DNA of 35,857 nt from Acidimicrobiales bacterium (lineage in GTDB: Bacteria > Actinomycetota > Acidimicrobiia > Acidimicrobiales > SZUA-35). Position 1 is the stretch's first letter. Every line of letters begins with the position of its first letter. Location of the stretch: contig JAHDFH010000017.1 in NCBI GenBank assembly GCA_020628305.1, positions 1-35,857 on the forward strand, written 5' to 3'. A program made the position numbers and the translations under genes. The notes under the pieces are model-generated. The model did no database searches. It was given only the letters and a program-made list of their open reading frames with translations, and was not told the origin of the DNA. Below, piece after piece: positions 4,851-29,255 of this stretch.

Positions 4851-4910
4851 CAAGGCCTCTAACCACCTTTCAAAAGAGATCAAAGTAAATCCCAAAGACC
4901 ATCGAATCAG

Positions 4911-4967
4911 ATAGGACCGTCCCCACCGTACCTTTAAAAGCCGGATAGGACCGTCCCTACCGTACTC
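4911..4967. repeat. Two copies of a GGGAC-core palindromic repeat downstream of ilvD
   Basis: Two direct copies, 4911-4932 and 4945-4967, share ATAGGACCGTCCC-ACCGTAC with one C/T difference. Read in the ilvD direction each contains a TAGGG-ACGG-TCCTA or TGGGG-ACGG-TCCTA hairpin core. The first copy met downstream of ilvD begins only a few bases after its stop, so it may act as a 3' end or mRNA-stability element. Related copies lie at 21590 and 32911. Confidence 0.75.
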
Positions 4968-4973
4968 CCACAA

Positions 4974-6668
4974 CTAGCTATCTGTTACGCAGCCGTGGCT
5001 GGCGTCGGTCACCAGCTTTTGGTATTTGAAGAGGGTACCAGATGAAGTCTTTAGCGCTGGCTCTTTCCAAGCTGCTTGGCGTTCTGCCATGGTCACATCA
5101 TCAATATTGACAGAGATCGTGTGCGACTCATCGTCAATTGTAATTTCGTCACCATCCTCAACTACAGCTATTGCACCACCCTCTTGAGCTTCGGGAACAA
5201 CGTGACCGATGATAAAGCCATGTGAACCGCCCGAGAAACGCCCGTCGGTGATGAGCGCTACATCATCCAAGAATCCCGCCCCGGCGAGCGCTGAAGTTGG
5301 TTTCAACATCTCAGGCATACCTGGCCCGCCACGAGGACCTTCATAACGAATCACAATCACATCGCCCGATGTGATTTTTCCTTGCTCGAGACCTTCAATC
5401 ATTTCTTCTTCAGAGTCAAACACTCGAGCGGGTCCGGTGAATGCTAGACCTTGCTTGCCGGTGATTTTCCCAACAGCTCCACCTGGCGCTAAGTTGCCAC
5501 GCAAGATTGAGATGTGACCTCGGCTCTTAAGAGCGCCCTCAACCTTTGCAACAACCTGCTGGGCATCTGCCAAACCTTCCGCCTCGTCTACATTCTCAGC
5601 CAACGTTTTCGAGGTCACAGTCATTTGGGTTCCATCAAGCAGGTTCTCTTCGAGTAGATACTTAACAACACCTGGCACTCCGCCAACTTCGTGGAGCTCT
5701 TCCATCACATACTTACCACTTGGCTTAAGATCAGCCAGTAGAGGAACACGGTCGGAGACCTTTGCCCAGTCATCAATGGTTAGCTCAATCCCAAAAGAGT
5801 GTGCCATTGCAATTAAGTGCAGTACGGCGTTCGTTGAACCACCCAACGCCATCGTTATGACCATGGCGTTTTCTAACGACGCTCGGGTTACGATCTTGCG
5901 TGGAGTTAAGTCCTTCTCAAGTAGGGTTTTGATAGCTACACCAGCTGCGTAACATTCGTTAGATTTTGCGTCATCTAAAGCTGGTGTGCATGATGAGTAT
6001 GGCAGGCTCAACCCCATAACTTCGATAGCAGTTGCCATCGTGTTTGCTGTATACATGCCACCGCAAGCCCCAGCACTTGGGCAAGCATTGGCAACAATAT
6101 CTTGACGTTCTTCCTCAGTGATTGTTCCAGCGAGTAGCTGCCCGTAGCTTTGGAATGCAGAAACAACATCCAGCTTTTGTTCTTCCCCACCTATGGTGGC
6201 ACAACCTGGTTTGATTGTTCCTCCGTAAACCATAATCGCTGGACGATCCAAGCGCCCCATCGCCATCACAACTCCCGGCATATTCTTATCACAGCCAGGC
6301 AGCGTAACTAGCCCGTCATACCACTGAGCACCCATTACAGTCTCGATTGAGTCAGCAATGAGATCACGGCTCTGTAGCGAGAAACTCATACCGTCGGTTC
6401 CCATTGAAATTCCGTCTGAAACTCCAATGGTGTTAAACCTCATACCGATGAGATCTGAATCGCTCACCCCCGAGTACACCTTGTCAGCCAGGTCATTTAG
6501 ATGCATATTGCATGGGTTACCTTCGTACCAACATGAAGCAATGCCCACTTGAGCTTTTTGAAAATCACTTTTAGTTAGGCCAGTTGCATGAAGCATGGCC
6601 TGAGACGCTCCCTGGCTAGCCGGTTGGGTAATGGTGGCAGAATACTTATTAAGCTGTTGATCAGACAT
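4974..6668 (-). CDS. ilvD: Dihydroxy-acid dehydratase
   Basis: The 564-aa product is full length for the IlvD/Edd family. It dehydrates 2,3-dihydroxy-isovalerate and 2,3-dihydroxy-3-methylvalerate to the 2-keto acids in valine and isoleucine synthesis, in the cytosol. The Fe-S cysteines are C53 (NPCNMHL), C126 ([10 protein letters not shown]) and C202 ([10 protein letters not shown]). D127-K128 of GCDKNMPG supply the Mg2+ and carboxylated-lysine ligands. The C-terminus ends HGCVTDS, where the family usually reads K-G-A-V-T-D; this is a small change near the conserved end. The ATG at 6668 is 6 nt after TAGTTT, which lies in one arm of a palindrome shared with the divergent glycosyltransferase. 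No other branched-chain genes are next to it, so it is an isolated pathway gene here. Confidence 0.97.
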
Positions 6669-6673
6669 GACTA

Positions 6674-6700
6674 CAAACTAGCTGCCTAAGAGCTAGTTTG
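6674..6700. promoter_or_regulatory. Symmetric divergent promoter: perfect 10-bp palindrome holding both -10 boxes
   Basis: CAAACTAGCT (6674-6683) and AGCTAGTTTG (6691-6700) are exact inverted repeats separated by 7 bp. Each arm, read outward, contains TAGTTT. The left one is 6 nt from the ilvD ATG (6668) and the right one 8 nt from the glycosyltransferase ATG (6708). Both genes are then essentially leaderless, with back-to-back -10 boxes. The same palindrome could be an operator or an mRNA hairpin. Confidence 0.6.
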
Positions 6701-6707
6701 AACATCT

Positions 6708-7835
6708 ATGACCAATCGCGGCATTAGGGACGCGGTCGATTGCCGCGGTCAGCAGACGACTATCTTCCTGGTTGAGCCCTTCTACTCGGGTTCACACAAA
6801 GCCTGGGCTGATGGATTGGTAGAGCATTCAGACCATACAGTTGAACTAATCACCATGCCTGGCGAAAGGTGGCGCCATCGAATGCGGCATTCTGGAGCCC
6901 AGCTAGCGGCAAAGATCAACGCTGCGATTGAGCAACAATCAGCGAAAGAAACAAAGAATGTTGTCGCCCATCAGGGCGCGACGAGTGACCGCGTCCCTAA
7001 TGCCGCGATTGTGCTGTCGTCTATGACGAATGCTAAGGACTTTGTTGAGGGACTCGATTTTCGGTTGCCTGTTCTTCTTTATATGCATGAGAACCAACTC
7101 GGCTACCCGGGATCGCAGGCAGACAATGAGTTTGCTCGGATCAACATTGACTCTATTGAAGCCGTTGACCATGTGGCATTCAACTCTCAGTTTCATCTGG
7201 AGCAGATGCATATGCTGCTACCGACGGGACTCCTTGACGACAAACATATCCATGTTCTGGAAGTTGGCATTGATCCGCCGCAGTTCCAGCACCAACCAAG
7301 CTCTCCTCCCCTTGTCATGTTCAATCATCGCTGGGAGTTTGACAAACAACCCGATATCGCTATCAGTGGGTTTACATTAGCTCGCGATCAAGTTGAATTT
7401 GATTTAGCTCTGTGCGGCGAACATTTCCCAGGCCGCCATGCCATCGCTACCGCCGAGCTCAATCCAAAATTTGCGGGTTACCTTCCCCGCTCAGAGTATC
7501 TAGCCGCTCTAGCTGCAACCGACGTTATAGTCAGCACCTCTCAACATGACTACTTTGGCATATCAATCGTCGAAGCAATGAGTTACGGCGCAATTCCTGT
7601 GCTCCCAGGTTCTCTCAACTATCCAAACCTTGTGCCAATAGATCTACACACGAGTCTTCTATACCAACCAACTACGGCAGAGGAGTTCTCATCAGCTCTA
7701 ATTCGAACTCTTAAGAACCTAGCAACTTTTGACAGATCGGTGCTGCAACAACATGTGACTCAGTTCCACTGGCCGAAGCTCATCAAAATCTATGACTCGG
7801 TCTTTGATGACTTAACAAATTCAGCAATAACCTGA
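6708..7835 (+). CDS. GTDC1/DUF3524-type glycosyltransferase, probable tRNA-queuosine mannosyltransferase-like
   Basis: This 375-aa GT-B glycosyltransferase of the DUF3524/GTDC1 (QTMAN) family is related to the enzyme that mannosylates queuosine in tRNA-Asp of animals. Landmarks are FLVEPFYSGSHKAWADGL, MPGERWRHRMR, LLYMHENQLGYPG, FNSQFHLEQM, MFNHRWEFDKQPD and the C-terminal donor site STSQHDYFGISIVEAMSYG. Bacterial substrates are less certain, so the tRNA role is inferred from the family. Two copies of a palindromic DNA repeat lie inside the frame: one encodes residues about 3-13 (NRGIRDAVDCRG) ahead of the conserved FLVEPFY start, the other residues about 88-101 (QGATSDRVPNAA) in a variable loop. 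The frame is intact through both. The gene ends with a 46-nt antisense overlap with the menH-like gene. Confidence 0.85.
   Translation: MTNRGIRDAVDCRGQQTTIFLVEPFYSGSHKAWADGLVEHSDHTVELITMPGERWRHRMRHSGAQLAAKINAAIEQQSAKETKNVVAHQGATSDRVPNAAIVLSSMTNAKDFVEGLDFRLPVLLYMHENQLGYPGSQADNEFARINIDSIEAVDHVAFNSQFHLEQMHMLLPTGLLDDKHIHVLEVGIDPPQFQHQPSSPPLVMFNHRWEFDKQPDIAISGFTLARDQVEFDLALCGEHFPGRHAIATAELNPKFAGYLPRSEYLAALAATDVIVSTSQHDYFGISIVEAMSYGAIPVLPGSLNYPNLVPIDLHTSLLYQPTTAEEFSSALIRTLKNLATFDRSVLQQHVTQFHWPKLIKIYDSVFDDLTNSAIT
6713..6747 (+). repeat. Palindromic repeat copy A within the glycosyltransferase N-terminal codons
   Basis: TAGGGACGCGG at 6725-6735 lies in a block whose ends, CGCGGCA (6717-6723) and TGCCGCG (6741-6747), can pair. 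Bases 6713-6737 are the exact reverse complement of 6987-7011. TAGGGACGCGGT and TTGCCGCG recur at 29233-29255. Confidence 0.8.
6971..7011 (-). repeat. Palindromic repeat copy B, inverted, inside the glycosyltransferase
   Basis: Read on the minus strand, 7011-6987 repeats copy A exactly for 25 bp and then continues as a diverged copy ending CGCGCCCTGA. AGGG-A-CGCG and CGCG-CCCT can form a hairpin. The copy is translated in frame. Confidence 0.75.
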
Positions 7836-21528: not shown

Positions 21529-21589
21529 TAATGGATAACACGCTCAACTTGTAAATGGGTCGAACCGTACCGTTCCTAATGACAATCGA

Positions 21590-21610
21590 ATAGGACCGTC
21601 CCTACAGGCT
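21590..21610. repeat. GGGAC-core palindromic repeat downstream of the PASTA kinase
   Basis: ATAGGACCGTCCCTACAGG is nearly identical to the copies at 4911 and 4945. On the kinase strand it reads CTGTAGGGACGGTCCTATTC and starts 9 nt after the stop codon. A decayed half-copy (CCGTACCGTTCCTAATGAC) lies at 21566-21584. Confidence 0.7.
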
Positions 21611-28371: not shown

Positions 28372-29235
28372 GTGAGTATCGAGACCAAGCTGCTTTGGCT
28401 TATTCGAGGGCTATGGGTGGGCGCAGCTGTAGTCGCCTTGATGACCTTGGCTGAAACCTTACAAGAACTAGGCACTACCCAAGTCGTTGCCATAGTTGTA
28501 CCCCTGTGGCTCTGCTGGCTTGGAGGTTTTGTCGGGTTATTGGTTCCATCCAACCTCAGCCTGACGACCATCCGTGTTGTAAGCCCAATATTGACAGCCG
28601 TTTGGATCAGTTTGGCAATCGATTGGCAGACAGCAATGGCTGCGGCAGCAACCAGCTCTGTGCTACTACTTTTGATATATAGTCATCGGTTTGGTTTTGC
28701 CATGGTCAACGGTTCTGCTTATGGATCAGAAAAACGTTACCTTCTTGCTCCTCCTGTGCCGGCCGTCGCTGTTGTGAACGTTTGTGGCGCAGCCTCCATT
28801 GTTGCAGCGATCTGGTCTGTCAGGTTAATCCAGGGCGGTTCTGTTTGGATAATCGCAGCAGCCGCACTGTTCGCCGCAGCCACGTTCGTCCTCACCCGAT
28901 TCTCACACCAACTTTCATTACGCTGGATTGTCTTCGTACCTGCCGGTTTAGTAGTGCATGACCCAATAGCACTATCGCACTCTGCTTTGTTCAGAAGACC
29001 AGAAATAGAGTACTTAACCACAAGCCAATCGGGCACTGTCGATGATTCCACACTCGATCTTTCAATGGGCGCTCCAGGGCTGTCATCGAGTATCCAAACA
29101 AAAGATGAACTCGTTATAGATCTTCGATCTCAAGAACCAGTTAAGGCGACGAACATTAGAGTCACTCCGTCTGCCCCTGGAGCACTGCTAAAACAGGCCC
29201 GACTAAGAGGAATCAAAACCAAAGTCGACCAATAG
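28372..29235 (+). CDS. Polytopic membrane protein, unknown
   Basis: This is a 287-aa protein starting with GTG. About seven hydrophobic helices fall in pairs between residues 10 and 205: two near the start, two around 70-105, two around 130-175 and one after FSHQLSLRWIVFVPAGLVV. A cytoplasmic-type hydrophilic tail of about 80 residues follows, ending with basic residues (KQARLRGIKTKVDQ). Actinobacteria carry many such conserved membrane proteins without known function, and I cannot place it further. The TAG stop is the first three bases of a palindromic repeat (TAGGGACGCGG), so the gene's end may have been set by repeat insertion. Convergent with the sua5/tsaC gene. Confidence 0.72.
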   Translation: MSIETKLLWLIRGLWVGAAVVALMTLAETLQELGTTQVVAIVVPLWLCWLGGFVGLLVPSNLSLTTIRVVSPILTAVWISLAIDWQTAMAAAATSSVLLLLIYSHRFGFAMVNGSAYGSEKRYLLAPPVPAVAVVNVCGAASIVAAIWSVRLIQGGSVWIIAAAALFAAATFVLTRFSHQLSLRWIVFVPAGLVVHDPIALSHSALFRRPEIEYLTTSQSGTVDDSTLDLSMGAPGLSSSIQTKDELVIDLRSQEPVKATNIRVTPSAPGALLKQARLRGIKTKVDQ

Positions 29236-29255
29236 GGACGCGGTATCTTGCCGCG
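29233..29255. repeat. GGGACGCGG palindromic repeat at a convergent gene junction, possible terminator
   Basis: TAGGGACGCGGTATCTTGCC then GCG; CGCGG (29239-29243) pairs with CCGCG (29251-29255) around a 7-nt loop. It is the third copy of the element found twice in the 6.7-kb glycosyltransferase, and its TAG is the stop of the upstream gene. Confidence 0.7.

Follow-up and report, generated by a model that had tools for sequence, protein, structure and literature searches.

Palindromic repeats translated within a QTMAN gene of an Acidimicrobiia genome are probably REP-like mini-elements of a RAYT-type transposase system

Why does one gene of an Acidimicrobiales bacterium carry the same palindromic DNA twice, in opposite orientations and in its reading frame? 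The gene lies in the window, the whole stretch of 35,857 nt analyzed here, which is contig C60 of a 2.36-Mb genome in 132 contigs (assembly approximately 95% complete). An earlier, sequence-only reading had proposed either a translated palindrome resembling those of Rickettsia or a segment that inverts and switches the gene off. In a Pfam scan, the product of ORF 6708-7835 matched PF12038 QTMAN_N (E 2.8e-29) and also Glycos_transf_1 (E 2e-11). QTMAN homologues were present in 41 of the 61 genomes searched, the nearest with only about 43% protein identity; a sequence search of the PDB found no relative, and a scan of genome contigs with the QTMAN protein gave no match. The IlvD protein is 80% identical to that of Acidimicrobiales/Acidimicrobiia metagenome genomes, which places the genome in this group.

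The inverted pair, designated I1, has arms of 35 nt (6713-6747 and 6977-7011) that are 89% complementary. Its inner 25 bp (6713-6737 and 6987-7011) were confirmed to be exact reverse complements, whereas approximately 5e-7 such perfect pairs would be expected in the window from base composition. Both copies are in the frame of the 375-aa QTMAN ORF, as had been claimed. The element proper is about 31 nt long (6717-6747 and, on the minus strand, 6977-7007), and the 25-bp identity therefore covers a portion of it together with 4 bases of flanking sequence (CAAT). The features of the window are listed in the table.

Table. Palindromic elements in the window and the gene that carries two of them
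Feature	Position	Strand	Evidence
QTMAN/DUF3524-type glycosyltransferase gene, 375 aa, with two elements	6708..7835	+	ORF, Pfam PF12038, homologues
Type B palindromic element, copy 1; codes part of the N-terminal extension NRGIRDAVDCRG	6717..6747	+	pattern, fold, homologues, start codons
Type B element, copy 2, opposite orientation; codes the ATSDRVPNAA stretch	6977..7007	-	pattern, inverted pair
Inferred insertion block, 42 nt / 14 codons	6966..7007	+	homologue comparison
Third type B element, between convergent genes; Sua5-type gene next, minus strand	29225..29255	+	pattern, ORFs
Type D core GATAGGACCGTCCCCA, intergenic	4910..4925	+	pattern
Type D core GATAGGACCGTCCCTA, intergenic, in tandem with the 4910..4925 core	4944..4959	+	pattern
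Type D core AATAGGACCGTCCCTA, intergenic	21589..21604	+	pattern

Comparison with homologues showed that the internal copy adds residues to the protein. A block of 14 aa is absent from 16 QTMAN homologues, which run directly from helix to strand, and the residues at this copy are thus extra, as the first reading had supposed; it placed them at about 88-101, close to the 90-100 (GATSDRVPNAA) found here. With 6966-7007 removed, the translation becomes KNVVIVLSSMTNA, which agrees with GDIVILCSSMTNA in a homologue from the same genus. At one edge, the 42-nt block coincides with the element's CGCGG start; at the other, it extends 11 nt past the other arm. One arm of this copy has decayed (CGTCGCG) and its fold is weak. 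A clean empty site at the DNA level was found in none of the relatives compared, none of which is close.

The first copy encodes residues 3-14 (NRGIRDAVDCRG), and its outer stem, CGCGGCA/TGCCGCG, folds. The first residue of most QTMAN homologues aligns with window residue T17, and the codon of T17 (6756) is ACG where most of them have a start ATG, as if the ancestral start had been lost once the upstream start and the element took over. This copy could instead be a regulatory hairpin in a 5′ untranslated region, with translation starting downstream at a non-standard codon and the second copy alone being coding. The T17 codon is one base from ATG, and Di Nocera 2013 (PMC3733652) warned that many N-terminal REPs are misannotated. 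However, the ATG at 6708 is in frame, no ATG, GTG or TTG occurs in frame between it (residue 1) and residue 37, and a start at residue 37 would lose the conserved FLVEPFYSGSHKAW motif. An untranslated hairpin is accordingly considered unlikely, and copy 1 is read as translated by elimination, since the ATG at 6708 is the sole standard in-frame start before residue 37.

The element is present elsewhere in the genome: TAGGGACGCGGT occurs exactly 10 times against 0.27 expected. Copies were surveyed by pattern searches and by inspection of sequence stretches, copies with many mismatches being missed, and eight weak pattern matches were dropped by eye ahead of counting. Degenerate patterns gave about 64 copies of three types, 34 of type A (consensus TGGGACATTGGGGACGGGGGTATTTGTCCCA), 27 of type B (consensus CGCGGCATTAGGGACGCGGTCACTTGCCGCG) and 3 of type C. 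Type D (core TAGGGACGGTCCTATC) gave 28 matches, compared with 0 for a reversed-pattern control; two of the 28, which lie at contig ends and share the same flanking sequence, may represent a single copy. All types together amount to approximately 90 related copies, of which the window holds three of type B and three of type D. The third type B copy, placed between genes at 29233 by the earlier reading, does exist but is not strictly intergenic, since ORF 28372-29235, upstream of it, terminates at the element's TAG. A short tandem cluster of three type A elements on the same strand was also seen on contig C117 (1538-1642).

The outer stem was paired in 88% of cells and 37 cells had changed on both sides, figures reached in none of 500 shuffles, although much of this covariation signal is the split between two subfamilies and does not represent many independent events. 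The inner stem, formed with a second copy of the 5′ arm, was likewise supported, and through this double pairing positions -3, 11 and 23 covary together. The loop is conserved in sequence as well as the stem.

The genome was also searched for elements inside ORFs, as the earlier reading had suggested, and further in-frame copies were found in gcvT (two) and nuoL. One gcvT copy falls within the GCV_T domain, at a site where the majority of homologues are shorter by 7 aa; the second is at the C-terminus, in the opposite orientation and 0.6 kb away. The nuoL copy is in a linker that is shorter or different in homologues. A murJ copy was dropped as an insertion, its homologues having the same length there with no net change; going by such protein comparisons, the in-gene copies do not all appear to be simple insertions. 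N-terminal overlaps with the aroQ, cytidylate kinase, LepA-like and carboxyltransferase ORFs were excluded from the count, the true starts probably being downstream. Many copies lie 3′ of genes, and several genes receive their stop codon from the TAG of the element. Random insertion in a gene-dense genome would make most copies intragenic, and few are, which suggests selection against intragenic ones.

With one mismatch allowed, the pattern gave 52 matches in the genome, 0 in the control and 0 in 38 genomes of the same family. In other genomes of the order, single strays were found in only 5 of 297, with similar strays for the control. At this sampling (38 family and 297 order genomes), the expansion is lineage-specific.

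Three transposase genes of PF01797 (Y1/HUH, IS200-like, RAYT-type) were detected in the genome, on contigs C98, C13 and C49. Inverted type A copies (683-713 and 1564-1594 of locus L107) lie on either side of the C98 gene, the C13 gene is flanked by inverted type C copies, and the C49 gene by inverted type D copies in clusters; a gene flanked by type B, the window's own type, was not found in the approximately 95%-complete assembly. HUH and Tyr motifs are kept in the C98 product (GNHFHL, FNYVHRNP; PF01797 E 8.5e-9) and in that of C49 (SNHYHL, GYIHRNP; E 4.6e-14), and the C13 gene is a degenerate, truncated remnant that has HFQ. For all three, the best NCBIfam match was NF047646 REP_Tyr_transpos (E 3e-12, 1e-12 and 6e-4), with scores of 46.6, 47.9 and 19.7 bits that do not reach its 80-bit cut-off. 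Pfam gave no match to a C-terminal helix-turn-helix at E up to 5, and the length of 264-289 aa leaves room for one. Beside the C49 gene is a 188-aa ORF (L108:1053-1619) whose C-terminus is encoded by two type D elements.

Related RAYT genes were found in 11 of 60 other genomes, and in sister genomes several of them lie between inverted AGGGGTCAGG/GGGGACAGG repeats. At six sister loci (L211, L212, L215, L217, L219 and L222), RAYT-like genes were observed with long flanking inverted repeats, several having GGGGTCAGG-type ends. Because inverted copies lie on both sides of three Y1 transposase genes in this genome, the family is assigned to the RAYT-associated REP/TIR type. The repeat very probably belongs to a RAYT/TIRYT (Y1 HUH-tyrosine, IS200-like) system, as a non-autonomous, REP-like mini-element that spread in one Acidimicrobiia lineage.

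Two other explanations bear on the family or the pair as a whole. The perfect 25-bp inverted repeat encloses 249 bp within a single gene, and recombination between the arms would invert this segment and cut the protein off after about 25 residues, turning the gene off as a phase switch. However, the arms are two members of a dispersed family of about 90 copies, gcvT likewise bears two opposite copies, and 25 bp is short for homologous recombination. No recombinase was found among those window ORFs that were scanned with Pfam, and inversion of 6738-6986 would destroy the QTMAN ORF; the invertible segment of the earlier reading is therefore very unlikely.

The elements might also be RNA hairpins selected as terminators or mRNA stabilizers rather than mobile DNA, in-gene copies being chance look-alikes; their frequent position after genes, some of which take the stop codon TAG from them, agrees with this. 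Against it, conservation covers the loop besides the stem, the family is confined to this genome among relatives, transposase genes are bordered by elements, and host proteins carry extra residues compared with their homologues. We regard selected hairpins as very unlikely and retain the RAYT-associated mini-element.

RAYT-associated (TnpA_REP-associated) REPs are 20-40 nt palindromes, dispersed, species-specific and mostly outside genes (PMC3733652; PMC6006769), as are the elements found here, which at 31 nt, with about 64 A/B/C and 28 type D copies and compensatory stem changes, have the size and abundance of REPs (20-40 nt, many dispersed). REPs inside genes, genes that carry two of them and TAG stops have been described (PMC3733652), as have REPs inserted within transposase genes (PMC6006769); shared here are stops supplied by the repeat, some in-frame intragenic copies and some genes hit twice, and Y1 transposase genes with copies on either side were found for types A, C and D but not for type B. 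The tag differs. REPs have an unpaired GTAG at the hairpin foot, whereas here it is (A/T/G)TAG or TTGG rather than strict GTAG, lying inside the outer stem (WTAG/TTGG at positions 2-5), and types A and B have no G at the first position. The inverted AGGGGTCAGG/GGGGACAGG transposase ends of the sister genomes resemble the TIRYT ends, GGGGWSAS (PMC3733652, PMC6006769), of TnpA_REP subclass 2.1. The type A core GGGGACGG is one base off GGGGWSAS; the own-genome ends, GGGGACGG or AGGGACGG, deviate from it and, unlike TIRYT ends, are short palindromes that also occur as many free copies.

Rickettsia palindromic elements (RPE) are likewise in frame and translated in unrelated protein genes, and the present elements may be said to work like them, the likeness observed being one of behaviour. 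The elements here differ in flanking transposase genes; CGTC-type repeats, RPE-4/6 included, have no transposase association (PMC3733652). Of the proposal of a Rickettsia-like coding palindrome in an actinobacterium, a repeated palindrome in frame in coding DNA, missing from homologues at the internal site and found in other genes too, has held up; its kind is refined to the RAYT-associated REP/TIR type by the three Y1 genes flanked by inverted copies.

A transposase of the RAYT/TIRYT group would have cut single-stranded copies and pasted them into new sites. Survivors would be mostly intergenic or at gene ends. The few in-gene copies would have survived because their length preserved the reading frame, because most frames through the element are open, and because the added residues ended up in a loop or at a terminus. 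QTMAN would have received one copy at its N-terminus and another in the loop that precedes strand IVLSSM; together they would form an inverted repeat through chance orientation and not as a switch.

Reciprocal type A/type B hybrids were observed on the same strand of contig C49 (10527(-) and 14830(-); L272:1535-5746), flanking a 1403-aa ORF. The C-terminal part of its product resembles a 497-aa, surface-like protein with DUF11/SdrD_B domains on contig C2 (L084), which also ends in an element. This arrangement fits integration of a circle via recombination between two elements, and the hybrids suggest possible cross-recognition between types. A wider scenario is possible but doubtful: terminal repeats of TIRYT type in Acidimicrobiia may have become free-standing mini-transposons, diversified four ways and adding new in-frame peptides to core genes. 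In types A and B, the same 5′ arm occurs twice before one 3′ arm, all three covarying between types, which would give two exclusive hairpins that could guide the site of cleavage; the hybrids around the 1403-aa surface-protein gene would mean that whole genes are carried too.

GTAG repeats have been listed from Proteobacteria, Cyanobacteria, Chloroflexi and PVC, and CGTC repeats from five phyla, Actinobacteria not among them (PMC3733652); for Actinobacteridae, only subclass 1.1 (IS200-type) proteins were listed (PMC6006769). A limited search of the open-access literature found, provisionally, no relevant report of RAYT or translated palindromes in Actinobacteria. REP-like mini-elements tied to RAYT/TIRYT transposases, some of them translated, are thus a known kind, apparently unreported for Actinobacteria, and the present case extends translated RAYT-linked palindromes to a phylum absent from the lists in PMC3733652 and PMC6006769. 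Here coding palindromes share a genome with candidate transposases, a connection that the Rickettsia elements lack. With several families, three tied to their own transposase gene, and insertions in core enzymes, site choice and peptide tolerance become testable.

One further palindrome was noted in the window. Between the divergent ilvD and QTMAN genes, an almost perfect palindrome, CAAACTAGCT-gcctaag-AGCTAGTTTG, spans 6668-6708 and may be an operator or terminator.
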